This document shows positions 1 to 43,325 of a stretch of DNA of 43,325 nucleotides, one piece after another. The notes under the pieces are model-generated. The model had not been told where the DNA came from. It made no database searches and saw nothing but the letters and a program-made list of their open reading frames with translations. The stretch comes from Verrucomicrobiia bacterium (GTDB taxonomy: Bacteria; Verrucomicrobiota; Verrucomicrobiia; Limisphaerales; DASXHY01): assembly GCA_035629175.1 (NCBI GenBank), contig DASPIL010000042.1:1-43325 (forward strand), read 5' to 3'. Positions within the stretch are counted from its first letter, which is position 1. Every line of letters begins with the position of its first letter. A program made the translations under genes and the position numbers.

Positions 1-636
1 ACCGAGAGCCTGCCGCAGATTTTCGCCAAGGAGCTGGGGGAACTGCTGACGATCGCTGCGCGTGATGTGCAGCTGGAGATCATCTGCCCCCGCGGCGTCA
101 AACCGCTGGGATTCATCGGACGCACTGAGACGTTCGAGAACCAGCGGTCCGTTGTGAAGCTGAGCCACCTCACGAGCGGCCAGACGCGGACACTCTTCCT
201 GCGCTGCCGCGTGGTCGAAGAAACCCCCGAGATCGCCCAGGTCAACGTGGCCTATGCGGATGAAATCGAAGGCGGATCTCAAAACTCGCAGGCAACGCTG
301 CGCGTGCGCTTCACTGAAGATCGCGAGGTGGCGAGCCGCTCTGTGAACAAGGCCGTGATTGCCGAAAAGGAACTGTTCTACACCGGCGTTCTGAAAGATG
401 AAGCCCTTGCAGATGCGGATGCAGGCAACCTGGCGGCGGCCGCAAGCAAACTGAAGAAGCAGTCGATCATTCTGCAGAACAACGTGCAATACGCCCCCGC
501 GCCGGCGCAGGCCGCGATGGAACGCGAACTCAAGAATCTGGAGGACCGCAGCCAGCAACTCGAATCCGGCCGCTACGATGCGCCCACCCGCAAAGCGTTA
601 TCGTCCGAATCGTTCTCCACGCGCAACTCGAAATGA
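1..636 (+). CDS. VWA-domain (YfbK-like) protein, C-terminal part only
   Basis: The reading frame is open from the first base, so this is the last 211 residues of a longer gene. The segment has the all-beta region that follows the von Willebrand A domain in Ca-activated-chloride-channel-like proteins: an LPQIFAKELGELLT helix, then VQLEIICPRGVKPLG and a run of beta strands. The C-terminus is helical and polar (ANLAAAASKLKKQS, ERELKNLEDRSQQLES). The VWA domain and its MIDAS residues would lie upstream and cannot be seen. The stop is TGA at 634-636. A sensor kinase follows on the same strand after about 160 bases. The role is unknown; in this family metal-dependent protein binding is usual. The family call rests on the post-VWA region alone. 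Confidence 0.6.
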   Translation, partial: TESLPQIFAKELGELLTIAARDVQLEIICPRGVKPLGFIGRTETFENQRSVVKLSHLTSGQTRTLFLRCRVVEETPEIAQVNVAYADEIEGGSQNSQATLRVRFTEDREVASRSVNKAVIAEKELFYTGVLKDEALADADAGNLAAAASKLKKQSIILQNNVQYAPAPAQAAMERELKNLEDRSQQLESGRYDAPTRKALSSESFSTRNSK

Positions 637-796
637 GATCCGCCGCGCCGTAGCGCAGATGTCCAAACCTGCTGTGTCGCCGCGTCCAGGCCTGGCTGGC
701 TATCACCGCCTGGCGGGTTGGATACCGCGATACAGCAGACTGAAACTTCTGCAGCTACGGGTTTGCCTTCTGCGCAGCGCCACGCTTGCCCCGCCC

Positions 797-2746
797 ATGC
801 GCCTTGCAAATCCTGAACCTTCCTTGAATGCTGCTCCGATGCGGAAAGTCGCGGTTCTGTTCGTGCTCGCGGTATTCATTCCCAGCCTCGTGCTGGCATG
901 GCTCGCATTGCGCTCGCTCCGTGACCAGCAGATCGTCATTGAACGCCAGCAGTCAGTACTCTACCAGGGCGTGACTGATCGAGCGGCAAAACGCGTGCAG
1001 GACCTGATGGCGCAACACCAACAGGATTTCAGCCGAAGGATCGAGGCGATGCTCGCGCGAAATTCCGCCCGCGAGATCGCCGCCTCGTTTGATGAACGCC
1101 TGAAAACAAACTGGCCGCCTGCCAAGGTCGGATTTGTGGTGACGACGGGCGGCGACATTCTTTCGCCCGGAACCAACAGCCGCAAGGATGCGCAACTGTT
1201 CCGCGAGTTGAACGAATCATTCCTGGAGAACCGGGAACCGGCTGAGGTGTACGTTAACAATTCCCTTTCTGATCAGCCCCTCGCCCAGAACACCAGCTCG
1301 GCTGGCATCCAGAGTTCCGAACGCACCCAACTCGCCGCTCCCCGCCAGACCGCATCCCGCGCCGCGCCGCCGCCTTCGTCCTCTCAAAACATGGTGCAAC
1401 TGAAGTCGGCGCCAACTCGCGCCATACAGCCGCAGAAAAAACTCGAGCCGCTTCGGAAGGAACAACCCTTGCAGGATGCCATGCACGAGCAGGAACTCTC
1501 GAAAATCGCCCCGGCCGAAGCCGAATTCAAGCAGCTGATCGGCAACGCCAGCCAGGGCACGCTCGCGCGCTTCGTCGACAATCAACTCAGCATCCTGTTC
1601 TGGTATCGCCCGGCCGAACAGCCCCGCTACATCTTCGGAGCGCAACTGGATCTCGCTTCCCTCGTTCATGAACTCGCGCCGATCGTGGCGGCAGTGGATC
1701 GCCAGCTCCGCACAGAATTATGCATTGCCTTGCTCAATGACGCTGCCAAGCCCGTGGCTCTTTCAGACAAATCGTTCCAGGGCGATTGGAAACGTCCGTT
1801 TGTGGCGACTGAGATAGGCGAAACGCTGCCGCATTGGGAGGTGGCGGCTTACCTCTTGAATCCTGGCCAGCTTACGGCGTCTGCGCGAACCGTTCGATTC
1901 ACCGTCAGCCTGCTGGTCGCGTTGCTGATCGTTGCAATTGGAACTGGCAGCTGGTTGATCGTTCGTGATCTCAACCGGCACCTGCAGCTCGCGCGTCAAA
2001 AAACAGATTTTGTCAGCAACGTGTCGCACGAGCTCAAGACGCCGCTCACCGCCATTCGCATGTTTTCGGAAATGCTCGCGGAAGGCCGGGTGACGGATCC
2101 AGGGAGGCAGCGCTCCTACTTGAACATCATCACGGCGGAAACGTCGCGCCTCACCCGCCTCATCAACAACGTCCTCGATTTCTCGCGCATGGATCGAGGC
2201 GAGAAGAAATATGATTTTCGAGATTGTGATCTCAACCAACTGGTCCGCGAGACCACGGAGTCGTATCGACCGCACCTGGAAAACCATCAATTCACGTTAA
2301 ACACCGAGTTCGAGGCAGATGCGATCAAGATCCATGCGGATTGCGATGCCATTTCCCAAGTGATCCTCAACTTGCTTTCCAACGCGGAAAAATATTCGGG
2401 TGAGCAGAAGGATGTATGCGTAACGGTCTCGCATTCGAAGGGCTCCCCACCCTTTGCTGAAGTGCGGATAGCAGATCGCGGCCTCGGCGTTCCCGCTGGC
2501 GCCGAGGAGCGCATCTTCGAACAATTTTATCGCGCCCATGATTCCCTCAGCAGCGGCATCCAGGGATCCGGACTGGGACTCACGCTCGCGCGGCAGATCG
2601 CCCGGGCACACGGGGGCGATGTTACCTGCGAGCGGCGCGAAGGCGGCGGCAGTGTGTTCTGCCTGAGGCTTCCTTGGAGCGCAGACACAAGCCGCCAGCG
2701 CGCAACTCTGAATTCGCATTATGAAAACGAGAATCCTGGTGGTTGA
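797..2746 (+). CDS. Membrane sensor histidine kinase
   Basis: Orthodox two-component kinase of about 649 residues. A hydrophobic segment near the N-terminus (VLFVLAVFIPSLVLAWLAL) and a second one at about residues 375-395 (VSLLVALLIVAIGTGSWLIV) bracket a periplasmic domain of some 340 residues that includes a Gln/Ala/Pro-rich linker. The kinase core is clear: HisKA box NVSHELKTPLTA with the phospho-accepting His near residue 411, N box LNLLSNAEKYS, G1 box ADRGLGVP, F box EQFYRAH and G2 box GSGLGLTLA. The frame stays open upstream to 578, but that part overlaps the preceding gene and is Arg/Pro rich, so ATG 797 (or ATG 839, which would begin MRKVAVLF) is preferred; neither has a clear ribosome-binding site. 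The end overlaps the response-regulator start by 26 bases, so the two are translationally coupled partners. The signal sensed is unknown. Confidence 0.85.
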   Translation: MRLANPEPSLNAAPMRKVAVLFVLAVFIPSLVLAWLALRSLRDQQIVIERQQSVLYQGVTDRAAKRVQDLMAQHQQDFSRRIEAMLARNSAREIAASFDERLKTNWPPAKVGFVVTTGGDILSPGTNSRKDAQLFRELNESFLENREPAEVYVNNSLSDQPLAQNTSSAGIQSSERTQLAAPRQTASRAAPPPSSSQNMVQLKSAPTRAIQPQKKLEPLRKEQPLQDAMHEQELSKIAPAEAEFKQLIGNASQGTLARFVDNQLSILFWYRPAEQPRYIFGAQLDLASLVHELAPIVAAVDRQLRTELCIALLNDAAKPVALSDKSFQGDWKRPFVATEIGETLPHWEVAAYLLNPGQLTASARTVRFTVSLLVALLIVAIGTGSWLIVRDLNRHLQLARQKTDFVSNVSHELKTPLTAIRMFSEMLAEGRVTDPGRQRSYLNIITAETSRLTRLINNVLDFSRMDRGEKKYDFRDCDLNQLVRETTESYRPHLENHQFTLNTEFEADAIKIHADCDAISQVILNLLSNAEKYSGEQKDVCVTVSHSKGSPPFAEVRIADRGLGVPAGAEERIFEQFYRAHDSLSSGIQGSGLGLTLARQIARAHGGDVTCERREGGGSVFCLRLPWSADTSRQRATLNSHYENENPGG

Positions 2747-3416
2747 GGATGATCCGCACATTCTGCTCGGACTCGAGGAGTTGCTGCGCACCGAAGGATT
2801 CGAAGTCGCTTCCTGCGCGCGCGGCGATCAGGCCCTAGCCGCGGTGGAACAGCATCGGCCCGGTTTGATTCTTCTCGACGTCATGCTGCCGGGCGCGAGC
2901 GGTTATGACATTTGCAAGCGGCTGCGCGCCAGGAATGTCGCCACGCCCATCCTGATGCTGACGGCTAAAGGCCAGGAGATCGACAAGGTGGTCGGACTGG
3001 AACTCGGGGCCGATGATTACGTGACGAAACCCTTTGGCGTTCGCGAACTGCTGGCCCGAATTCATGCCTTGCTGCGGCGAGCCTCTCCCGCCGTCGCCGA
3101 AAACGAAAACGGAAGCGAGGTGTTCTGGATTGGTGATGCAGAGGTGAACGCCCGCACGTTTCAACTGCGGCGCAACGGCGTGGTCGAGGAATTGACCGCG
3201 CGCGAACTCAAGCTGCTGCAACTGTTTCAGGCGCGAAAAGGCGAGGTGCTATCGCGCGATGAGCTGCTGAATCAGGTCTGGGGGGTGAATTATTATGGAA
3301 CGACGCGGACACTCGACCAGGTGATTGTGCAGCTGCGGCGCAAGCTCGGCGACCAGGGAAGCGAACCCAGACATTTGCTCACGGTTCACGGAGTTGGATA
3401 TCGGTTGCGCGGTTGA
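2721..3416 (+). CDS. OmpR-family response regulator
   Basis: A 231-residue DNA-binding response regulator. The receiver domain (about 1-118) has the acidic pair in VVEDDPH, phospho-acceptor Asp53 in LILLDVMLPG, Thr81 in MLTAKG and Lys103 in VTKPFGVREL. The C-terminal winged helix (about 135-231) has ELTARELKLLQLF, the GEVLSRDELLNQVWG segment, the recognition-helix region TRTLDQVIVQLRRKLGD and the closing HGVGYRLRG typical of OmpR/PhoB. It starts inside the last codons of the upstream kinase gene (26-base overlap) and is almost certainly its partner. Phosphorylation should control promoter binding; the target genes cannot be told from the window. Confidence 0.93.
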   Translation: MKTRILVVEDDPHILLGLEELLRTEGFEVASCARGDQALAAVEQHRPGLILLDVMLPGASGYDICKRLRARNVATPILMLTAKGQEIDKVVGLELGADDYVTKPFGVRELLARIHALLRRASPAVAENENGSEVFWIGDAEVNARTFQLRRNGVVEELTARELKLLQLFQARKGEVLSRDELLNQVWGVNYYGTTRTLDQVIVQLRRKLGDQGSEPRHLLTVHGVGYRLRG

Positions 3417-3467
3417 CGGCGGATCTTCACCGCGGCAACAAGGGCACATCACATGACGGCAGCGAAC

Positions 3468-5252
3468 TCAGCGGCTGTCGACGATTTCGTTGCAGGCTTT
3501 CAGTTCCACCCAGAAGCGGCTGCCCTTTCCAGGCTCGGATTCGACCCCGACTTTACCACCCATTCTTTCCGTGACCTTGCGAACGAGCGCCAGCCCAATT
3601 CCATTGCCCTCGTATTGACGGCTCCCGCGCTGGAACATGCCGAACATGCGCGGCGCCAACTCCCGCGGAATCCCAATTCCATTATCCTCAAACCAGATAC
3701 GCGCCACGCCATCCAGGTATTCACCGCGCACTCTCACGTGCGGTTGCTGGCGCTGTTCCACGAACTTCACCGCGTTGTTCAAGAGGTTCGAGAAGCACTG
3801 CGTCAATCCTGCTTCATTTGCAAACACCGTCGGCAAATCGTCCGCGACTTCGATGCGCGCGCCGGGCGGCTGAAACTCCGGGTACGATTCGATCATTCCC
3901 TTGAGGAGCTTTCGCGTGTCGACGGGTCGCAAGGGCAGTTCCTGCCGCACGCTTCGGCTGTAGCTGAGGGCGTCCGTGATCAGGCGATCCATGCGCCCCG
4001 CGGCGGTGATGATGCGATTGAGAAAATCCCGGCGCGACGCTTCATCCAGCTGGTTCGCCACGAGCAGCTCGCAAAAGCCCTGCATCGCCCGCAACGGCGC
4101 GCGCATGTCGTGCGTGATGCTGTAGGAAAAATGTTCCAGTTCATCCACCATCTCGCGCAATTGCGCCGTCCGGTCTTCAACCAGCCTTTCTAGATTATTG
4201 TTTGTTTCCGCCAGGGCTTCGTGCAGGCGGCGCACCTCGAGAATGAGCGAGCATTGCGCGGCAACCCATTCGATGATGCGGAAATCCGCGGTCGTCCAGA
4301 GGCGGGGACGGTTTGAATACACTTCCACGGCGCCAACGGGTTCGTCATCCAGCCGAACAGGCGATGACAATACGGATCGAAACGGAAACGAACCATCGGA
4401 CGCGAGAACCGCAAGATCGCGGCGCGCATCGAGATCCTCGACGAAGGCCGTGCGATTTTGCCGCATGACAATCCCGGCAAAGGAACCGTTCAGCGGGAGC
4501 AGCCGTTGCGAACGCCCAATGCTGCCGATGGATGCCGTCACTGCGACCTGCTCGTCCAAAGCTTGCACCACGGCAGCGGCGCTCCCCGAGCCGCCGAGCA
4601 GTTCGAGCGCGCAGCGGCAGATATCTTGAAGCACGGAATCATCGGAAGTGGTGACCCGCAGGGATTGCAACAGCGTCTGCAGCATTTTTTCCCGCTGAGT
4701 CAATTCATCATTGGTCGCGTGGAGTTCTTCGGACTGAGCCTGCAACTCTTCCGCCTGTTGCTGCAGTTCCTCGGATTGCTGCTGCAATTCTTCATTCTGC
4801 TGCGCCATTTCCTCAGCCTGCGCCTGCAGTTCCTCGTTCTGATGGCTTATCTCCTCATCGCGGGCGGCGAGTTCGTCGTTGGTCTGCTGCAACTGCTGAT
4901 TTTGAATCTCAAGCCGGCCCAGGAGGCGCACAATCATGTCGACCGCCAGCGCCACGACAACCGTGTTCACAACCTGCATCTGCCAATGCAACGTTGTCCA
5001 AAGATCCCGCGGCGCAAGAAGATAAAGCGCTTTGTAAGCCGACATCGCGATGAAGACACCTGTCATCGCCCAGAGCAGTTTGCGGTCGCGATGCCACAGG
5101 CAAAGCAATAACGGCAGGCCGTAGGTCAGCGTGATGAACCGATCGGGGAACAAGTAGAGGCGCACGTATGCCATCAGGCCGACAGAAACGGCAAAAATAG
5201 CGACCGATACGGCGGCAGAATAGGTTCGTCCGACTGCACCTCCGGAATTCAT
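3468..5252 (-). CDS. GAF-domain sensor histidine kinase with long coiled coil
   Basis: A 594-residue kinase. Four hydrophobic stretches (about 12-32, 41-53, 60-80, 92-110) form an N-terminal membrane module. Residues about 112-190 are a striking coiled coil of repeated (Q/E)-EEL-QxQ units. A GAF domain spans about 205-340. The kinase core follows: DHp box YSITHDMRAPLRAM with His381, N box NLLNNAVKF, G1 box EDNGIGIP, F box GMFQRG and G2 box GNGIGLALV. The HDMRAPL form is that of phytochrome-like and CheR/CheB-PAS kinases. It begins one base after the stop of the CheR-like gene, so the two are probably co-translated, and the long Q/E coiled coil resembles the linker found in CheB-CheR-PAS fusions. 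No receiver domain is attached; the partner regulator is not obvious. Confidence 0.85.
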   Translation of the reverse strand: MNSGGAVGRTYSAAVSVAIFAVSVGLMAYVRLYLFPDRFITLTYGLPLLLCLWHRDRKLLWAMTGVFIAMSAYKALYLLAPRDLWTTLHWQMQVVNTVVVALAVDMIVRLLGRLEIQNQQLQQTNDELAARDEEISHQNEELQAQAEEMAQQNEELQQQSEELQQQAEELQAQSEELHATNDELTQREKMLQTLLQSLRVTTSDDSVLQDICRCALELLGGSGSAAAVVQALDEQVAVTASIGSIGRSQRLLPLNGSFAGIVMRQNRTAFVEDLDARRDLAVLASDGSFPFRSVLSSPVRLDDEPVGAVEVYSNRPRLWTTADFRIIEWVAAQCSLILEVRRLHEALAETNNNLERLVEDRTAQLREMVDELEHFSYSITHDMRAPLRAMQGFCELLVANQLDEASRRDFLNRIITAAGRMDRLITDALSYSRSVRQELPLRPVDTRKLLKGMIESYPEFQPPGARIEVADDLPTVFANEAGLTQCFSNLLNNAVKFVEQRQQPHVRVRGEYLDGVARIWFEDNGIGIPRELAPRMFGMFQRGSRQYEGNGIGLALVRKVTERMGGKVGVESEPGKGSRFWVELKACNEIVDSR

Positions 5253-13730: not shown

Positions 13731-13754
13731 TCCGCATTCGTTGATAGCAACGAA

Positions 13755-13867
13755 CTCATAAAGAGTGGTCGAGGGACTGGCCCGAAGACGCCACGGCAAC
13801 CGGTTGCAGCGCGATTTGCAATGTCCAGGTGCCAATTCCAGCTCCGAAAAAACCGGAGGAAAATGAG
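13755..13867 (+). promoter_or_regulatory. SAM-I (S-box) riboswitch
   Basis: The class signature blocks occur in order: the AAGAG kink-turn side of P2, GAGGGACTGGCCCGAAGA, GGCAACCGGTTGC and CAGGTGCCAATTCCAGCTCC. P1 closes by pairing CTCAT (13755-13759) with ATGAG (13863-13867). SAM binding stabilises P1. The 3' strand of P1 is also part of an alternative helix: TGAGAAG (13864-13870) can pair with CTTCTCA (13892-13898), the 5' arm of the downstream terminator. High SAM should therefore favour termination and low SAM read-through, so the downstream genes are expected to be induced by methionine/SAM shortage. Confidence 0.95.
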
Positions 13868-13886
13868 AAGAGCGCGCGCACTTTGA

Positions 13887-32792: not shown

Positions 32793-33410
32793 ATGGGCAA
32801 GCCCGAATATCTGTGGCGGAAGCTGACACCAAACCAACGCATTGAATTGCTTGATTGGCGGAAGCGGCAGGGCCTGCCTTGGCATCGCCCGCCGCATCGG
32901 GCCAGCGAGAAGACGCGTTACCATGTCACGGCGGCGTGTTTCGAACACCGCTCAATAATTGGTCACAATGCGGAACGGATGGCGTCCTTCTCCCATACGC
33001 TGCTTGATGTGTTGCGCCAACGTGAAACGCAGATTCACGCCTGGTGCGTGCTGCCAAATCATTATCATGCGCTGATCGAAACTCCGGGCATCCTCGAAGT
33101 GCTGGCGGATCTGGGCCGAATGCATGGCCGCCTTTCGTTTCAGTGGAATGGCGAGGAGCAAACACGAGGACGTCAGGTATGGTGCGGGGCGGTTGAACGG
33201 TTCATGCGCAACGATGCGCATTTCTGGGCAACGATGAACTATGTTCATCACAATCCGGTGCATCACGGGTACGTCGGTCATTGGCAGGACTGGCCTTTTT
33301 CCAGCGCGGCGGACTATTTGAGCGGGATGGGACGCGAGGAAGCGTCGCGGATTTGGAAAGAGTTTCCCGTGTTGAAATATGGAAAGGGTTGGGATGATCC
33401 TGAGATGTGA
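32793..33410 (+). CDS. REP-associated tyrosine transposase (RAYT, Y1-transposase family)
   Basis: A 205-residue single-domain HUH enzyme. The metal-binding motif is PNHYHALIE (His90, His92), the likely catalytic Tyr150 is in MNYVHHNPVHHGYV, and the family closing motif WQDWPFSSAADYL is present. RAYTs are domesticated relatives of IS200/IS605 transposases; they cut single-stranded REP hairpins and are thought to spread them. The gene is flanked on both sides by clusters of palindromes of one design, as expected for a REP/RAYT locus. The N-terminus (MGKPEYLWRKLTPNQR) is of the longer subtype. All key residues are intact, so the enzyme may be active. Confidence 0.9.
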   Translation: MGKPEYLWRKLTPNQRIELLDWRKRQGLPWHRPPHRASEKTRYHVTAACFEHRSIIGHNAERMASFSHTLLDVLRQRETQIHAWCVLPNHYHALIETPGILEVLADLGRMHGRLSFQWNGEEQTRGRQVWCGAVERFMRNDAHFWATMNYVHHNPVHHGYVGHWQDWPFSSAADYLSGMGREEASRIWKEFPVLKYGKGWDDPEM

Positions 33411-34615: not shown

Positions 34616-36364
34616 ATGCACTGGGTCGCTCCATCTGAGAAAAGCATCCACACGGAGACCTTGGAAAAACGCCTCTGGGATTCCGCCGACCAGTTTCGCG
34701 CCAATTCCGGCCTCAAGGCCCAGGAATACTCCGGCCCGATCCTCGGCATCATCTTCCTACGATTCGCGGAAGTCCGCTTTGCACTGCAACGCGCCAAGCT
34801 GGAGAAAGCCTCTGCCTCGTCCAGGCGCGGCTCGCGCGTGGATGAACCCGCCGCCTATCACGCCGAGGGCATCCTCTACCTCGCGCCCAACGCCCGGTTC
34901 GATTTCCTCCTGAATCTGCCCGAAGCAAAGGACATTGGCGCGAAGGTGAACGACGCCATGCGGGACATCGAGAAGCACAACCCGCAGCTCGCCGGCGTCC
35001 TGCCCAAGACCTACAACCTCTTCACCAGCACCCTCCTCAAGGAGCTGCTCAAGAAAGTCTCCGAGATTCCCGCCACCGTGGACTACGACGCCTTCGGGCG
35101 CATCTACGAATACTTCCTCGGCGAGTTCGCCCGCACCGAAGGCCAGAAAGGCGGCGAGTTCTACACTCCCTCCTGCATCGTCCGCCTCCTCACCGAAATC
35201 ATCGAGCCCTACCGCGGGCGCATCCTCGATCCCGCGTGCGGCTCGGGCGGCATGTTCGTCTCCTCCGCGCGATTCGTGGCGGAACATAAAAAGAATCCCA
35301 GCGCGGAACTCTCCATCCACGGCGTCGAGAAGACCGACGAAACCGGACGCCTCTGCCGCCTGAACCTCGCCGTGCATGGCCTCGAAGGCGACATCCGCCA
35401 CGGCGGCCAGGTGAACAGCTATTACGACGATCCGCACAAGGCAACGGGCCAGTTTGATTTCGTCCTCGCCAATCCACCGTTCAATGTGAACGCAGTGGAC
35501 AAGGAACGGTTGAAAGACTCCGTCGGGCCCGGCCGCCGCTTCCCGTTCGGCCTGCCGCGCACCGACAACGCTAATTACCTCTGGATTCAACTCTTCCACT
35601 CCGCGCTAAAGAATGGGGATGCCCGAACTTCGGGCGGCAGGGCCGGATTCGTCATGGCCAACTCCGCCTCCGACGCCCGCGCCTCCGAACAGGAAATCCG
35701 GCAGAAACTCATCGAAAGCCGCGCGCTGGACGTGATGGTCGCCGTCGGCCCGAATATGTTTTATACGGTGACGCTCCCTTGCACGTTATGGTTTTTGGAT
35801 AAGTCGAAAGCGACACCCTCTCCCACTGGGAGAGGGAGGAGCGGAGCGGAGGGTGAGGGAAAACAGAACCGAGCGGATACAGTTCTGTTTATAGATGCCC
35901 GCCACATTTACCGGCAGGTGGACCGCGCACACCGCGACTGGACGTCCGCGCAGATTGGGTTCCTCGCCAATATTGTGCGGCTTTACCGGGGCGAGCCGCC
36001 GGATTACACGCTGGGTGGAGCTGAGGCCAAGGCCAAGGTCGAGGAGCTGTTTGCCGCACAACCCTCAACCCGGCCTGGCGGCCACCCTTCTCCCAGTGGG
36101 AGAAGGGCCGGGGATGAGGGTATCGCCCGGTATCGCGACATCCCGGGTTTATGCAAAGCCGCGACCCTGAAAGAAATTGAGACTGAGGGATGGAGTCTGA
36201 ATCCAGGGCGATATGTGGGCGTCGCGCCGGGCGAAGCCGTGAGCGACGGGGACTTCAAGGAACAACTCGAAACCCTGAACGAGGAACTAGAAACGTTGAA
36301 CGCCCAAGCCCGCGAGTTGGAAACCACAATTGCGAAGAACGTCGCGGAAATCCTGGAAGCATGA
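34616..36364 (+). CDS. hsdM: Type I restriction-modification DNA methyltransferase (M subunit)
   Basis: A 582-residue N6-adenine methyltransferase. The N-terminal helical domain (about 14-160, [20 protein letters not shown]) is that of HsdM. The catalytic domain has [15 protein letters not shown] motif [11 protein letters not shown] (from residue 205) and catalytic motif IV ANPPFN (from residue 285). The C-terminus is a coiled tail ([18 protein letters not shown]) that contacts HsdS. Two insertions disturb the otherwise conserved C-terminal part: residues about 399-417 and about 481-502, both encoded by GC-rich palindromic repeats and rich in Pro, Ser, Gly and Arg. Both keep the frame, so the protein may still fold. 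The stop overlaps the next start (ATGA). It methylates host DNA as M2S and joins HsdR for cleavage. Confidence 0.93.
35621..35635. repeat. Short palindrome inside hsdM
   Basis: GCCCGAACTTCGGGC (arms of seven, one central base) encodes part of the segment [11 protein letters not shown], a flexible loop between the catalytic motif and AGFVMANS. It may be a small inserted hairpin, as similar loops in HsdM proteins are usually shorter, or simply a chance palindrome. Confidence 0.35.
35816..35862. repeat. Palindromic repeat inserted in frame in hsdM, copy 1
   Basis: The stretch contains CCCTCTCCC and GGGAGAGGG around the loop ACT, then GGAGCGGAGCGGAGGGTGAGGG, whose end pairs back toward the start. 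It encodes [17 protein letters not shown], a low-complexity segment placed between LWFLDKSK and the conserved [10 protein letters not shown] of HsdM. It has the look of a mobile intergenic palindrome that has landed inside a gene without breaking it. Confidence 0.7.
36061..36121. repeat. Palindromic repeat inserted in frame in hsdM, copy 2
   Basis: CCCTTCTCCC and GGGAGAAGGG surround AGT, flanked by CCCTCAACCCGG on the left and CCGGGGATGAGGG on the right, which also pair. It encodes [20 protein letters not shown], inserted between EELFAAQ and [11 protein letters not shown]. It is the same family as copy 1 and the copy in hsdR. Confidence 0.7.
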
Positions 36365-36771
36365 GCGACGCATCCCAATCACAACTGATTCTCTACCAAA
36401 CGGCCGATGGTCAGACCCGCATCCAATGCCGGTTTGAGAATCAGAATGTGTGGCTGACGCAGGCGCTGATGGCGGAGTTGTTCCAGACTACCGTTCCGAA
36501 CATCAACCTCCACATCAAGAACATCCTCGACGAGGGCGAATTGACCGAGGGGGCAACTATTAAGGATTACTTAATAGTCCGGTTGAAAGGCGGGCGGCAA
36601 GTGCGACGCCCAAGGCCAAGCGGACATCATGAATCTGCTCGAAGCCGAAGTGAAGAAACTCCCGAAGCGGAAAAAGGGAGGGAAGAAATGAAACTCGAAA
36701 CCTTGAACGCCCAGGCCCGCGACCTCGAACAAACCATTGCCCGCAACGTGGCGGAGATTCTGGAGGGGTGA
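36361..36771 (+). pseudogene. RhuM-like protein, truncated and fused to a second HsdM tail
   Basis: The first about 75 codons (SQLILYQTADGQTRIQCRFE, NVWLTQALMAELFQTTVPNI, GATIKDYLIVR) match the N-terminal helix-turn-helix-like part of RhuM/virulence-family proteins often found inside type I restriction operons. After GGRQV the match ends, where a full protein would go on for about 250 residues. The frame then runs through unrelated residues and ends in [26 protein letters not shown], a diverged copy of the HsdM C-terminus just upstream. In the other frame the same stretch reads ADIMNLLEAEVKKLPKRKKGGKK and stops at an ATGA junction (36688). So most of the RhuM gene was deleted and an HsdM-type 3' end was joined on. 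The start overlaps the hsdM stop by four bases. Confidence 0.7.
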
Positions 36772-36773
36772 CG

Positions 36774-38036
36774 ATGGACTGCGTTCTCAAAGACCTCATC
36801 GCGGTTTCAAAGGACGGAGAGTGGGGCAAGGGCGAGCCGTTCGATGAATCCGTTGAGATGCTCGCGATTCGCGGGACGGACTTTGAAGACGTGCGCTTTG
36901 GAAACACGGCGACAACGCCGCGCCGACATATTCCGCAGCACATTGCCGAACGGAAAAGGCTTCAGCCTTGGGATGTCGTCATCGAAGCTGCCGGCGGAAC
37001 GAAGAATCAGATTACTGGCCGAACTGTTCTCCTTCGCCCGCAGTTGTTTTCCCGCTCAGAATTCCCACTGACATGCGCGAGCTTCAGCCGGTTCATCCGG
37101 TTCAACACCGAGCTTTGCGAGCCGGAGTTCATGTTCTGGTATCTCCAGCACCTTTACGCATCCGGCTCGATGCACGCCTATCACACACAGCACACCGGCG
37201 TTGCTCGCTTCCAGTGGACAACATTTTCAGAGCGTGAGCCGCTTTCCCTCCCCCCGCTGCCGGTGCAACGGCGGATTGCGGGCATCCTGTCGGCCTACGA
37301 CGAGCTGATGGAGAACAGTCAGCGGCGCATCCGGATTTTGGAGGTGATGGCCCGCGCCCTCTACCGCGAGTGGTTCGTCCACTTCCGCTTCCCTGGCCAC
37401 GAAAAGCACCCGCGCGTGGCCTCCCCCCTCGGCGACATCCCCCAAGGCTGGGAGTGGCGTGAGCTGAATGAACTTGGTTTTCTCGGGCGAGGCAAATCGC
37501 GGCACCGGCCGCGAAATGAGGCTTCACTCTACGGTGGACCTTACCCGTTCTTCCAAACCGGGGACATCAAGGAAGCTCGAATCTTCCTCCGAAGCCACAC
37601 CCAGACTTACGGCGAGGCAGGTCTTGCCCAAAGCAAGCTTTGGCAACCCGGCACGCTTTGCATAACCATAGCGGCCAACATCGGTGAGACTGCGATTCTG
37701 GCCAAGACGGGCTGCATTCCTGACAGCGTCGTCGGCTTCGTACCGGACCTTGAGAAGTCCGATGCGTTCTACGTGAAGATGTATCTGGAGTCGATTAAGC
37801 AGCAAATGCAGAACGTCTCGCGCGGCACGACTCAGGACAACCTGAGTGTAGAGAAGCTGCTCGGCTTTCGGGTGCTGACGCCGCCGCCGTCCATCATCCG
37901 CGCGTTTCGCGAGAAAGTCTTGCCGATGCTGGACTTTCTGAACGTGCTCCTGCAAAAGGAAGAAAACCTCCGCCGAACGCGCGACCTGCTGCTGCCGCGC
38001 CTGCTGTCGGGGCAGGTGGAACTCGAAACCAGTTGA
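36774..38036 (+). CDS. hsdS: Type I restriction-modification specificity subunit (S)
   Basis: A 420-residue specificity subunit with two target-recognition domains. TRD1 (about 1-155) ends in FSEREPLSLPPLPVQRRIAG, and the central conserved helix ILSAYDELMENSQRRIRILE follows. TRD2 (about 210-365) opens at GDIPQGWEWRELNEL, contains a GDI motif and ends at LLGFRVLTPPPSIIRAF, with the distal helix LQKEENLRRTRDLLLPRLLSG. The two helices space the half-sites and bind HsdM. ATG 36774 has GGAGGGG eight bases before it; GTG 36768 is the other option and overlaps the preceding stop. The recognition sequence cannot be predicted by eye. Ends three bases before the ATPase gene. Confidence 0.92.
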   Translation: MDCVLKDLIAVSKDGEWGKGEPFDESVEMLAIRGTDFEDVRFGNTATTPRRHIPQHIAERKRLQPWDVVIEAAGGTKNQITGRTVLLRPQLFSRSEFPLTCASFSRFIRFNTELCEPEFMFWYLQHLYASGSMHAYHTQHTGVARFQWTTFSEREPLSLPPLPVQRRIAGILSAYDELMENSQRRIRILEVMARALYREWFVHFRFPGHEKHPRVASPLGDIPQGWEWRELNELGFLGRGKSRHRPRNEASLYGGPYPFFQTGDIKEARIFLRSHTQTYGEAGLAQSKLWQPGTLCITIAANIGETAILAKTGCIPDSVVGFVPDLEKSDAFYVKMYLESIKQQMQNVSRGTTQDNLSVEKLLGFRVLTPPPSIIRAFREKVLPMLDFLNVLLQKEENLRRTRDLLLPRLLSGQVELETS

Positions 38037-38039
38037 ACC

Positions 38040-40577
38040 ATGCCCAAGCACCCAGATGCAGTTGGCTATGTGAACGACCTCGCCAAGGAGGTAAACGAAC
38101 AATGGTTCAGAATGGTCTGCGACCTCGCGGCTGTGAGTGGTGTTTCAGCACTCGACCAACAGATGATCGACACGCTTTTCGCTCTCTATACGGTCAAGGC
38201 GAGCTACATCGGCATCAAGCCCGCCGCAGCCGTTGCTGCTGCCGCAGTCGCCGCAGTTCCAGCAGACTCCCTTGAGCAACTCGCAGGATTCACAAACTTC
38301 AAACTCCTCGGCGATGCGCTCGACGTTAGTTTAAAGAAGCGCGTCACTTTAATCTTTGGCGCGAACGGCAGCGGCAAATCCAGCCTGTGCGAATCCTTGA
38401 AAGTTCTCGCAACACCGGGGGTGCCAAGCCGACCGCTTGAAAACGTCCGTGTGGCTGGCGCGGTCACACCGACATTCCGCTTCAAGTTCAAGAGCGACGC
38501 CATCCCGCAGACTTGGACACCTGCCGCGGGGTATGGACCGCGACGAGCGACGGTTAAATACTTCGACACGGCGATTGCGCTCCAGAACGTGACCAACGCG
38601 GTCGAGCCCGGACGTGTGATAATTGTCGCACCGTTCAAGCTGCATATTTTCGAGTGGGCCAAAGCGTTGACGACCAAGTTCCGCGAGGCACTGCAACGGT
38701 CACAACTCGACAACGCAGCGAAGCTCACTCAGGCGTTGCAAGCGATTCGGACCGACTTCGTAAAGTTCAAGGCTCGCCCCTTGGCGCTCATTGATGACAA
38801 GACCGTTTCCACGCTCGCGGCACAAATCAAACTTGGCGAGGAGTTCAACGACCAAGAATTATTGCGCGAGAAACGAGCTGCCGCCGCCGAGTTGGAGAAG
38901 GCAACATCCGAAGAAGGATTGAAGCTTCTTCGCGCGGAGCACCGTGAGCTGGAAACCTTGCTGACGGCGTTGGACTCCCTGCTGACCTCCGCGGCGGCAC
39001 TTTGGGGACTAGACCCGGCGAACAAGGCGAAGACCCTCGCGAACAAGCAGGCCGCTCAGGAGGTGCTTGCGAAGGCACTCATCCCGGAAGGCAGCACGCT
39101 CGATAGCCTGCTGACTTTGCTTCGCGCTGCGTCTCCAATGTGCAAGATGGACGAGGCAACGGACCATGCGTGTCCGCTTTGCAAACGCGGTCTGGGTGCT
39201 TCCGAAGTTGAGTTGTTCAAGCAGTATCATGGATTGCTCGTTGGCGAACTTGAGAAAGACATCTCTGCCATCAAGGTCGACCTCATCAAGGCTCGCGACC
39301 TCTCAGCCGCAGTCGGACAGATTGACCGGAAAGCGTGGGACAAATGCAAAACCATAGCCGATGAGATTCTCACGGCGGCCAAGACCGGAGCGGAGTTGAT
39401 CGTGGCGAGTTGCGACATCTCAAAAGAACCGACCGCAGACGCCAAAGCTGCGTTGGAGTCGCTCAAGACTTCGGCGGTTACGTGGGCGGCGCAGATGGAA
39501 TCGAAGAAGACCGCCATTGACGCCGCTGCAAAGGGACGGGAGGAACTGGTGAAGCAGTTGGCAAAACTGCGCATTGAGCTTGAACCGTTGGAGTATGCCC
39601 AGGCCATTGCTGATGCGATGGAGAAGTTGCGCGAAACCCAGCGCATGGTGAACAGCGCGCAGTTCTGGAAAGAAAAGCTCCCGGCATTTACGCAAGTGCT
39701 GAAACGGATAACCGAGACAGCGAAGGACGCTCACGAGGATTTGGTGGTCACGGACTTTGAGGCGCGGTTGGACGCGGAATACCGGGCACTCGCGGAAAAG
39801 GGCATGGCAGCATTCGGCGTGAAGCTCGCGAGGAAAGGCGCGGACGCTTCCGTGACGGTGTTGCCACAGGTCGGCGGCAAGGGAATTGACGGCGTGTTGA
39901 GCGAGGGTGAGCAGCGGCTTCATGCGCTGGCGTTGTTCTTTGCCGAACTTGAAACCTGTCCGCAATCGGTCTTGGTGTTCGATGACCCGATCTCCAGCTT
40001 TGACTACAACTACATCGCGAACTACTGCGCCAGGCTCAGGGATTTCACGGTGAAGCATCCAGCGAGGCAGATTGTCGTTCTCACGCACAACTGGGAGTTC
40101 TTTGTCCAACTCCAAGCGACGATGAACCAAGCCGGCCTCGACGGTCACCTTTCAGTGCATGTTCTGGAGAACTGCACAGTCGTCGCCGACTACAGCGAGA
40201 AGATTGATGAACTGAAGAACGACATCAGCACGGTCTTGGCAACGGCGGGAGAGCCAAGCAAGCCCAAGAAAGAGGAGCTTGCCGGGAAGATGCGGCGGCT
40301 GATTGAGGCCGTTGTGAACACACACGTCTTCAACCACCAGCGGCATCAATACAAACAGAAGAGCCAAGCAATCACTGCCTTCCAGAGTTTCACAAAAGTC
40401 GTGCCATTACTCCCAGCCGAGGCCACCACCCTGCGTGACCTCTACGCGAAATTGAGCATCACGGAGCACGATGACCCACGGAACGCTTACGTGAACACCG
40501 ACAAGGCGATGTTCCAGACTCGCTACAACCAGATTCTCGGCATCGAAGCCGCAATCATTGGCCGCATTCCACCGTAA
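38040..40577 (+). CDS. AAA_13-type ATPase, PrrC/RloC-like, with Cys hook
   Basis: An 845-residue SMC/ABC-type ATPase. Walker A is GANGSGKSS (from residue 107), the ABC signature LSEGEQRLHALALFFAEL (from 620), Walker B SVLVFDDPISSFD (about 643-655) and the His switch VVLTHNWEFF (His683). Between them lies about 350 residues of Ala/Glu/Lys-rich coiled coil with a CPLC pair (Cys378, Cys381), placed like the zinc hook of RloC and Rad50. This architecture and the type I restriction context match the anticodon nucleases PrrC and RloC. The C-terminal domain has R752/R753 and E756 in KMRRLIEAVVNTHVF with several His nearby, compatible with but not proving the Arg-x3-Glu...His nuclease triad. A long Ala-rich stretch (59-73) is odd. 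The next gene encodes a double-HEPN protein. Confidence 0.82.
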   Translation: MPKHPDAVGYVNDLAKEVNEQWFRMVCDLAAVSGVSALDQQMIDTLFALYTVKASYIGIKPAAAVAAAAVAAVPADSLEQLAGFTNFKLLGDALDVSLKKRVTLIFGANGSGKSSLCESLKVLATPGVPSRPLENVRVAGAVTPTFRFKFKSDAIPQTWTPAAGYGPRRATVKYFDTAIALQNVTNAVEPGRVIIVAPFKLHIFEWAKALTTKFREALQRSQLDNAAKLTQALQAIRTDFVKFKARPLALIDDKTVSTLAAQIKLGEEFNDQELLREKRAAAAELEKATSEEGLKLLRAEHRELETLLTALDSLLTSAAALWGLDPANKAKTLANKQAAQEVLAKALIPEGSTLDSLLTLLRAASPMCKMDEATDHACPLCKRGLGASEVELFKQYHGLLVGELEKDISAIKVDLIKARDLSAAVGQIDRKAWDKCKTIADEILTAAKTGAELIVASCDISKEPTADAKAALESLKTSAVTWAAQMESKKTAIDAAAKGREELVKQLAKLRIELEPLEYAQAIADAMEKLRETQRMVNSAQFWKEKLPAFTQVLKRITETAKDAHEDLVVTDFEARLDAEYRALAEKGMAAFGVKLARKGADASVTVLPQVGGKGIDGVLSEGEQRLHALALFFAELETCPQSVLVFDDPISSFDYNYIANYCARLRDFTVKHPARQIVVLTHNWEFFVQLQATMNQAGLDGHLSVHVLENCTVVADYSEKIDELKNDISTVLATAGEPSKPKKEELAGKMRRLIEAVVNTHVFNHQRHQYKQKSQAITAFQSFTKVVPLLPAEATTLRDLYAKLSITEHDDPRNAYVNTDKAMFQTRYNQILGIEAAIIGRIPP

Positions 40578-40597
40578 TCCATGCCTCAGCTACACAA

Positions 40598-41410
40598 ATG
40601 AGCAATAACCAGAAACTAAAACCTTGGGCGGCCGGTCCATTCGAGTTGATTCGGCATGGTGATGGACACCTCAAAGGTGGGACGGATTTCGACAAACGGA
40701 TGGCTCTTGTCAGCTTCGACAACGCAGTCGAGGTGTCCATCACGACGCACCTTCAGCTTCACCCGTCACAGAGGGGCGGCAAGACTTACGAGGGGAAGAA
40801 AGTTCAACATTGGCTTTCCAATTTTCACGCGAAGCTGGAGTTCCTCGAAGAGTTCTTGGTAGAGCGGAAGATTCCGATCGAAGTCTCGATTGATGAGATT
40901 GTGTGGTATCACCAGCTACGCAACGAGCTTTATCATTCTGGAAATGGGATGACACCGGAGGTGCATTGCCTCGTCGAGGCACAACATGCCGCTGTTTGGG
41001 TTTTCTCCGTCCTCTTCGGCGTTGACCCGAAGGGATTGCTTCAGGAAGCAAAGCCAGTCGAGACTCCGCGCAGAATCATTGATGCCAGTCAACTGACAGG
41101 GAAATCGCTGTTCCTTGAGATATTCATTGACCTTGAAAGAGCGATTCTCGGGACTTTGCGCGGCGCGGGTGTCTTGCCGGACCAGGCACACCACGTTCCT
41201 GCTCGGAAAGGATGGATGGACCTAAAAAAATTGTATCCAGACCTTCCACACCAGTTTGATGAACTCGTAGCCAAGGCGACGCAGGTCAGGAATGCATTGG
41301 TGCATGGCGCGCCGGTTGAATTGACCGAGCATGAGCTTCTTGGACTCGCAGACAAGGTGGAACAAGTCACTACGACAGTTCGCGAAAAGATGGCCCGGCA
41401 AAAACGCTGA
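40598..41410 (+). CDS. Double-HEPN-motif protein, candidate RNase effector
   Basis: A 270-residue soluble protein that I do not recognise as a named family. Two segments have the HEPN ribonuclease motif Arg-Asn-x3-His: QLRNELYHSG (R108, H113) and QVRNALVHGAP (R231, H236). Each lies in a helical region of about 100-120 residues, so the protein looks like two HEPN domains in tandem (about 30-140 and 165-265). HEPN RNases are effectors in toxin-antitoxin, abortive-infection, type III CRISPR and anticodon-nuclease systems. It starts 20 bases after the RloC-like ATPase gene and is followed by hsdR, so it is within the restriction operon. It could be a toxin, a partner of the ATPase, or a non-catalytic binder. 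No antitoxin gene is adjacent. Confidence 0.7.
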   Translation: MSNNQKLKPWAAGPFELIRHGDGHLKGGTDFDKRMALVSFDNAVEVSITTHLQLHPSQRGGKTYEGKKVQHWLSNFHAKLEFLEEFLVERKIPIEVSIDEIVWYHQLRNELYHSGNGMTPEVHCLVEAQHAAVWVFSVLFGVDPKGLLQEAKPVETPRRIIDASQLTGKSLFLEIFIDLERAILGTLRGAGVLPDQAHHVPARKGWMDLKKLYPDLPHQFDELVAKATQVRNALVHGAPVELTEHELLGLADKVEQVTTTVREKMARQKR

Positions 41411-41515: not shown

Positions 41516-41734
41516 ACGAGGGAAAAACCTCAGGATCTGAAACCGAGAACCAGGGCGTTCGCGCTGCGCATCATCCACATGTATTCCGAGCTGCCGAAGA
41601 ACGACACGGTCGCACAGGTGCTGGGCAAGCAAGTTCTGCGTTCCGGAACATCGGTGGGCGCGAACTATTGCGAGGCGTCTCGTGGGCGGAAGGGAAAGGC
41701 TGAAGGCTTAATGCTGAAGGCCGAAATTGCATGA
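41516..41734 (+). pseudogene. Degenerate copy of the four-helix-bundle gene
   Basis: The frame reads TREKPQDLKPRTRAFALRI, then MYSELPKNDTVAQVLGKQ, matching the intact gene at 41828 but with the start codon changed from ATG to ACG (41516-41518). Bases 41600-41689 match 41912-42001 over 90 bases with one difference. The match ends at EASRGR, where the sequence passes into an inverted-repeat end and stops at 41732-41734. So it is a truncated copy lacking the last about 60 residues. Confidence 0.8.
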
Positions 41735-41827
41735 GGGAATAGCCACACCTTCAGCGTTAAGCCTTTAGCCTTTAGCATTTCTCCAAAAGGGGAAGGCTGA
41801 AGGCGAAATGCGGAAGGCTGAAGTGTT

Positions 41828-42196
41828 ATGAGCGAAAAGCCGCAGGACTTGAAACCTAGGACGAAGGCGTTTGCCCTTAGGATCATTCGCATGTATTCCG
41901 ACCTGGCCAAGAACGACACGGTCGCACAGGTGCTGGGCAAGCAAGTTCTGCGTTCCGGAACATCGGTGGGCGCGAACTATTGCGAGGCGTCTCGCGGGCG
42001 GTCCAAAGCCGAGTTCATTTCCAAGATTGGCGATTGCCTCAAGGAAATCGAAGAAACCGAGTATTGGCTCGAATTGATCGTGGACAGCGGTCGTGTGTCT
42101 GCCGCGAAGATGGCCGATCTGATCGACGAAACCCGCCAACTGGTGGCAATTGTGACGACCATTGATAAACGTTCGAAAGCAAACCTTCAGCATTAA
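41828..42196 (+). CDS. Four-helix-bundle protein (23S rRNA intervening-sequence protein family)
   Basis: A 122-residue all-helical protein. It has the family core: FALRIIRMYSDLAKN, QVLGKQVLRSGTSVGANYCEA, KAEFISKIGDCLKEIEETEYWL and ADLIDETRQLVAIVTTI. These proteins were first seen inside intervening sequences of 23S rRNA genes and are common as stand-alone genes flanked by repeats; their function is unknown, with RNA binding or dimerisation proposed. Here the last codons and the stop lie within the right inverted repeat (42184-42201), so the gene and the element end are one unit. It lies between the HEPN gene and hsdR and is probably a passenger rather than a part of the restriction system. 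Confidence 0.88.
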   Translation: MSEKPQDLKPRTKAFALRIIRMYSDLAKNDTVAQVLGKQVLRSGTSVGANYCEASRGRSKAEFISKIGDCLKEIEETEYWLELIVDSGRVSAAKMADLIDETRQLVAIVTTIDKRSKANLQH

Positions 42197-42221
42197 GCCT
42201 TTAGCCTTTAGCCTTTCTCCC

Positions 42222-43191
42222 ATGCCCCACGCCTACACCGAAGACCAGCTTGTCGAGCAGCCCGCCATCGGGTTGTTCGCGGAGCTTGGTTGGCAGGTGG
42301 CCGGGCCGCCGCTCACGGCAGGCGTTGCCGGTGAGCCTCGTGACGCGGGGTTGCTCGGTCGCGAGACTAAGGGCGAGGTGGTGCTGGTTCCGCGGTTGCG
42401 CGCGGCGTTGGAGAAGTTGAATCCCGCGCTGCCGCCCGAGGCCATCACCGCCGCCGTGGATGAATTGACCCGCGACCGTTCCGCGATGTTGCTCGAACAG
42501 GCGAACCGCGAGGTTTATCGGTTGTTGAAAGAGGGAATCCCGGTGAGCGTCGCAGATACCGGAGATTCGACACCTCACCCCGGCCCTCTCCCCGGTCGAG
42601 GCGGAGAGGGTGGTGCAAGCCGCACGGGCAATCCTCAGCGCGGAGAAGGCAAGGGAGGACAGACGACTGTCCGCGTCCGCGTGATTGATTGGGAGCAGCC
42701 AGCGAACAATGATTTCCTGCTGGTCAGCCAGTTCAGCGTCACGGGAGCGCTCTACACCTGCCGCCCGGATTTGGTGGGCTTCGTCAACGGCCTGCCGCTG
42801 GTGGTCATCGAGTTGAAGAAGCCCGGCGTGCCCGCGCGCGCGGCGTTCGACGAGAACCTGACGCACTACAAGGCGGAGATTCCGCAGCTCTTCTGGTTCA
42901 ACGCGCTGCTCATCGCCTCGAACGGCACGGACAGCCGCGTCGGTTCGATCACGGCGGATTGGGAGCGGTTCTTCGAATGGAAACGCATCGAGCGCGAGGA
43001 CGAGCCGCGCCGGGTGTCGCTGGAAGTGATGATTCGCGGCACATGCGATCGGTCGCGTCTGCTCGACCTGGTGGAGAATTTCACCCTGTTCTCGGAGCAT
43101 AAGGCGGGATTGGCCAAGATTGTTGGTCAGAATCATCAAGTGCTCGGGGTCAATGCGGCAATTGCGTCGTTGTTGCGGCGGCGTGGCGGAG
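42222..43191 (+). CDS. hsdR: Type I restriction endonuclease subunit R, 5' part, interrupted
   Basis: The first about 323 codons of HsdR, the ATP-dependent translocase and nuclease. MPHAYTEDQLVEQPAIGLFAELGW starts at ATG 42222. The N-terminal nuclease domain has RPDLVGFVNGLPLVVIELKKPG (the Asp and Glu-x-Lys of the PD-(D/E)xK site), then FDENLTHYK, WFNALLIASNGTDSRVG, RGTCDRSRLLDLVENF and GQNHQVLGVNAAIASLLRRRGG. The helicase motifs that should come next are absent: at 43192 the sequence turns into the 3' end of a group II intron in antisense orientation. About 35 codons between SVADTG and GGQTTVRVRVIDWE come from a palindromic repeat. The gene is therefore probably inactive unless the rest is read some other way; the distal part would lie outside the window. 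Confidence 0.88.
42569..42655. repeat. Palindromic repeat inserted in frame in hsdR
   Basis: The stretch starts ACACCTCACCCCGGCCCTCTCC and contains GGCGGAGAGGGTGG. It encodes TPHPGPLPGRGGEGGASRTG and further Gly/Arg-rich residues before GGQTTVRV. It is the classic CCTCACCC...GGTGAGG type intergenic palindrome read in frame, and is related to the two copies in hsdM. Confidence 0.7.
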
Positions 43192-43325
43192 ATAGGGGTA
43201 GGAGCGAGGGATTAACCTCGCCCCTCCCTCCAAACCGGACGGGCGGATTTCCCGCATCCGGCTTTCCGTTTAGTGGTTCCTGTCCGGAGTTGGCTCGCTT
43301 CGGCTCGGGCTGTGGCCAGGGAGAT
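43192..43325 (-). mobile_element. 3' end of a group II intron (domains V and VI), antisense in hsdR
   Basis: On the minus strand, 43265-43232 is a 34-base hairpin matching intron domain V: AAGCCGGAT pairs with GTCCGGTTT (two G-U pairs), a two-base CC bulge follows, and GCGG pairs with CCGC under an AAA-containing loop; the AGC triad is present. It is followed by domain VI, in which GGGGCGAGG pairs with CCTCGCTCC around TTAAT. A bulged A (complement of 43199) lies eight bases from a 3' end in ...CTAT, as expected for the branch point and the AY terminus. The intron reads opposite to hsdR, so it cannot be spliced from the hsdR message. Its 5' part and reverse transcriptase lie beyond the window. 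Confidence 0.75.

Follow-up and report, generated by a model that had tools for sequence, protein, structure and literature searches.

Terminators and attC sites are targets of group IIC introns. In passages of PMC7923331 and PMC10190682, their recognition mode is described as a short EBS1-IBS1 pairing, a one-base IBS3 and a hairpin in the 5' exon. Introns of classes g6, U1 and U2 likewise follow terminators, according to sections of PMC8919778. Two of the nine group II intron copies of Pseudomonas putida KT2440 lie in REP elements (passages of PMC1525189). GTAG-tagged REPs are short palindromes bearing GTAG at one end; some of them are situated within ORFs, and the verrucomicrobium O. terrae is rich in them (passages of PMC3733652). 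The word "intron" is absent from the main text of PMC3733652, hsdR is unmentioned in the main text of PMC8547433, and PMC3552965, searched for words on target sites, yielded nothing useful. Across the extracts of the literature covered, which joined group II introns with hsdR or restriction-modification, or with REPs or palindromes, no description of the arrangement reported here was found.

The window analysed here is a 43,325-nucleotide stretch from a Verrucomicrobiia bacterium (assembly GCA_035629175.1, contig DASPIL010000042.1, here C42). Very probably, a complete, mobile and endonuclease-less group II intron landed antisense in the hsdR gene of this bacterium by way of a hairpin target, with restriction most likely lost as a result. 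As in group IIC introns such as that of E. rectale, in the features given in sections of PMC10190682, the maturase is without a detected endonuclease domain, and a 5' exon hairpin, a short EBS1-IBS1 pairing and a one-base IBS3 are found here too. Unlike the group IIC introns of those sections, which target intrinsic terminators, the element is mostly found at dispersed palindromic repeats, one of them within a coding gene. Landing in palindromic repeats is shared with P. putida KT2440, although REP insertions are a minority there, by the figures in the passages of PMC1525189, whereas seven of the nine 5' exons here carry one repeat type, one of them inside a gene. The repeat itself resembles the GTAG REPs, as characterised in the passages of PMC3733652, in being a GTAG-ended palindrome inside an ORF, but is additionally an intron target. 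The type of element is already known; what is modestly new is its way into a coding gene, through a repeat that serves as landing pad.

Positions 43192-43325 on the minus strand contain the final 134 bases of the intron, which match without difference the 3' end of a copy on a second contig (C66) and comprise the end of the reverse transcriptase (RT)/maturase ORF, domain V, domain VI and the 3' end ...CTACCCCTAT; the window stops inside the intron because C42 ends there. Domains V and VI (43192-43266, minus strand) match the complete RF00029 (Intron_gpII) model, positions 1-77, in cmscan with 53.7 bits (E 6.5e-8) against a gathering score of 40 bits. The fold of domains V-VI, computed on the identical C66 copy, has an energy of -44.3 kcal/mol (z = -4.6), and none of 200 dinucleotide shuffles folded as low. 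Domain V consists of 34 bases with an AGC triad, as counted by hand on the fold, while domain VI contains one bulged A, the predicted branch point, at the eighth base from the 3' end, and the intron terminus is AT. Each of these features had been claimed from the letters alone in the preliminary description, which had also named a group II covariance model as a check, and both the model match and the fold bear them out.

A complete intron of 1868 bp is present on C66 of the same assembly (L023, positions 2470-4337), with the 5' end GTGCG (GUGCG in the RNA), and the ends of C42 and C66 have the same 135 bases in common. Its ORF codes for a 466-aa RT/maturase with the Pfam domains RVT_1 (5.4e-41) and GIIM (3.6e-16), which scores 368 bits against TIGR04416 (cut-off 300), and Pfam detected no endonuclease or nuclease domain in it. 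Among solved structures the best sequence match of the maturase is PDB 7uim (220.9 bits), which we take to be the maturase of the E. rectale group IIC intron, followed by GsI-IIC (173.2), 6me0 (159.3) and LtrA (145.5). The intron body gave no match to the Rfam group II D1-D4 models up to E = 1, so that the ribozyme class is not readable from Rfam; from the maturase and the target features, the element is concluded to work like a IIC intron and is likely to belong to class C. Related maturases were found at 80 loci in a scan of genome contigs from which the source genome was possibly excluded, the best being 71% identical (L064, a Verrucomicrobia MAG). The intron was matched in part by 20 of 58 genomes, its own included, and elsewhere the matches were either short or divergent, such as 86% over 87 bases and 67% over 676. 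Contig C1 has a second, distinct RT locus (L024, positions 75000-81000), in which domain V is matched weakly and a GTGCG comes after a terminator-like stem and T-rich tail.

The 5' part of hsdR (42222-43191, plus strand; 323 codons) encodes the nuclease domain HSDR_N (3e-44) and covers positions 89-260 of TIGR00348; both profiles match the translation of 42162-43190 right up to the intron. TIGR00348 continues at positions 269-669 on C66, so that the two halves meet on the profile, and this hsdR remainder immediately adjoins the 5' end of the intron, in the antisense orientation. When the flanks in the window and on C66 are joined, a single open frame of 1146 aa results, with the junction in codon 324, between HSDR_N and the SWI2/SNF2 motor and C-terminal domains. 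An antisense intron end interrupting hsdR had been proposed from the window alone, and the search past its end located the RT, the GUGCG 5' end and the missing half of hsdR, in the antisense orientation, all on C66. The adjacency of C42, intron and C66 is well inferred from the end overlap and the hsdR frame, rather than read from a spanning read or contig, and recombination among identical copies could have re-paired the flanks. Assemblers break at identical repeats, and almost every end of this intron coincides with a contig end, as might be expected if the end of C42 were an assembly chimera in which an intron tail was misjoined to an hsdR that is intact in the cell. Such a misjoin is nevertheless highly improbable, as on both contigs hsdR breaks off precisely at the edge of the intron, with the target hairpin at one junction and the C at +1 at the other, and the assembly contains no uninterrupted copy of the gene.

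Nine 5' ends of the intron were identified in the genome (C66, C33, C46, C67, C107, C70, C85, C69 and C74), all nine beginning with GTGCG, as were nine 3' ends together with their flanks (C42, C26, C76, C22, C21, C20, C15, C12 and C5). The 3' end of the C66 copy, whose flank is a single exon base, is additional to these. The copies are near-identical or identical over 108-135 bases, up to the contig breaks, and almost all of their ends are contig ends; identical intron copies thus account for the breaks in C42 and in several further contigs. The internal 1421 bases of the intron occur once in the assembly, which suggests that the copies were probably collapsed during assembly; the C66 intron may therefore be a consensus, and the copy in hsdR could differ internally. 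Taken together, an intron of approximately 1868 bp is probably present in about nine near-identical copies, and their presence at nine sites suggests recent movement.

Since the window holds just 134 bases of the intron and every 3' end is at a contig end, the length of the copy in hsdR is not directly readable, and hsdR might carry only a 5'-truncated 3' fragment, with the whole copy on C66 belonging elsewhere. The nine 5' ends, however, match the nine 3' ends in number, and the 5' flank on C66 corresponds precisely to the portion of hsdR that the window lacks, antisense to the intron and in the right frame, which makes a truncated fragment very unlikely and favours a whole intron within hsdR. 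Open frames of more than 300 codons reach the junction in two of the nine 5' flanks (L033, which is hsdR, and L037) and in two of the nine 3' flanks (the window, which is hsdR, and L026), counted per side with the 5' and 3' flanks of the eight other copies left unpaired. With so few flanks in long frames, most copies are probably located outside genes.

The type I restriction-modification system is complete in its parts, with hsdR in two pieces accompanied by hsdM (34616-36364, plus strand; N6_Mtase 1e-69, HsdM_N 1.3e-18), coding for the N6-adenine methyltransferase subunit, and hsdS (36768-38036, plus strand; Methylase_S 3.3e-15, PADLOC Specificity_I 1.1e-75), coding for the specificity subunit, both in intact frames. 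As HsdR is cut between its nuclease and motor domains, restriction by this system has probably been lost. The preliminary description had stated that restriction was probably lost and modification kept; the cut hsdR and the intact hsdM and hsdS frames agree with this, and the loss of restriction itself is deduced from the anatomy of the locus. The one other HsdR in the genome is encoded by a full frame (1115 aa) on C98, so the cell need not be restriction-free.

Read into the intron, the disrupted hsdR frame extends to 516 aa in total, with 323 HsdR codons followed by 193 antisense-intron codons and a stop, and both hsdR halves remain open into the antisense intron. A split but working HsdR might therefore be envisaged, in which the 516-aa nuclease half and a motor half of about 820 aa plus at most 153 intron-derived residues are produced as two chains that then assemble, particularly as the linker between them tolerates large inserts in relatives. 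This is scarcely credible, however, given that the possible starts of the motor half are mostly within the intron and that inspection revealed no clear ribosome-binding site before them. Under the favoured reading of a disrupted gene, the antisense intron could not be spliced from the hsdR mRNA and HsdR would be split between nuclease and helicase/translocase, so that the type I system would most likely methylate without cutting.

Folding places a hairpin just before the intron in all nine 5' exons. In seven of the nine, a perfect stem of 7 bp or more ends 2-5 nt short of the insertion site, compared with 256 of 12,362 sampled window positions, and the remaining two contain a stem with one mismatch. 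The 5' exon ends in GCTA in eight cases and in GCCA in hsdR, while the first base of the 3' exon, the IBS3 position (43191 on the minus strand in the window), is C in 9/9. A palindrome of one repeat type, as read by eye, is present in seven of the nine 5' exons; the hairpins of L039 and L040 are unrelated to it in sequence, so that what all sites have in common is the structure plus the last bases. A search permitting up to three mismatches located the common palindrome at 31 places in the genome, some of which are occupied sites, and at none with the reversed control. The hsdR copy has GTAG at one end, read directly from the sequence, and this GTAG-type palindromic repeat is carried in frame, in the linker of HsdR. 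A 205-aa Y1_Tnp-like ORF (window 32793-33410; 22.7 bits, just below the Pfam cut-off of 23) is possibly a RAYT responsible for mobilising these repeats.

An alignment of 17 introns shows that TAGC at intron position 198 pairs with the 5' exon, with covariation between the two. Nineteen related loci were scanned, of which 16 were aligned beside C66 (L066, L072 and L154 were unused), and the misaligned L157 was left out of the EBS1 count, giving 16 rows including C66. Across these 16 introns 76 of 80 positions are paired between EBS1 and IBS1, as against a mean of 40.3 and a best of 62 among 100,000 shuffles, where the relatives' intron starts were picked by hand among sometimes several GTGYG candidates, the EBS1 letters were read by hand from the alignment, and the C66 row was scored with the exon found at the eight other copies. 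In that row the exon of hsdR would give 3/5, its GCCA being mismatched at one position with the four-base EBS1, which fits the eight others, and the relative L085 also pairs poorly (3/5). By hand count, 10 of the 15 relatives examined have their lowest-energy stem ending 2-4 nt upstream of the chosen site, the exceptions being L155, L157, L070, L071 and L075, with L065 omitted for its short upstream sequence. The hairpin energies of the relatives at the sites used are weakly below those of mononucleotide shuffles (z -2.9 to +0.4).

The linker between nuclease and motor is short in four of five aligned HsdR homologues (L165, L167, L170 and L172), and that of the window's HsdR is approximately 50 residues longer, with the palindromic repeat region coding for the addition. 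The fifth homologue (L166, positions 1-3483, from the relative G010) contains DUF559 in frame at the same place (PF04480 1.9e-34), which indicates that the linker tolerates insertions. Such tolerance may have let the landing pad persist in frame before the intron arrived. Low-complexity stretches in HsdR (window 42222-43191, at about codons 118-150) and in HsdM (34616-36364) look like further in-frame repeat insertions, and the HsdR stretch differs among homologues.

The intron is thus envisaged to recognise a short DNA hairpin, then GCTA as a four-base IBS1, then C at +1. The hairpins in this genome are mostly copies of the GTAG-type palindromic repeat, one of which, already in frame inside the hsdR linker, would have served as landing pad, and the intron would have reverse-spliced there into the strand opposite hsdR. 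A broader two-step route is conceivable, though put forward tentatively and with slightly less than even confidence, in which a mobile palindromic repeat spreads, sometimes in frame within genes such as hsdR, and thereby distributes landing pads, and a hairpin-seeking intron, normally kept out of genes by its aim at terminators, then follows it on either strand, the lineage being a repeat specialist in this bacterial order. The favoured reading would account for a broken restriction gene, with one selfish repeat acting as landing pad for another within a coding gene. The locus also provides a compact natural case for asking whether introns that target hairpins are guided by palindromic repeats instead of terminators.

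Several other features are encoded in the window. Between hsdS and hsdR are located a gene for an AAA/SMC-like ATPase (38040-40577, plus strand; AAA_13 1.3e-20, PADLOC candidate PDC-S06 7.9e-46) and, beside it, a 270-aa ORF (40598-41410, plus strand) without a match in Pfam, NCBIfam or PADLOC, and these two (38040-41410) are possibly an embedded defence pair. A gene coding for a 23S rRNA intervening-sequence (four-helix bundle) protein occurs at 41828-42196 and is preceded by a partial near-duplicate of its own start, seen by eye in the region 41540-42196. A SAM riboswitch is present on the plus strand at 13753-13869 (79.2 bits).
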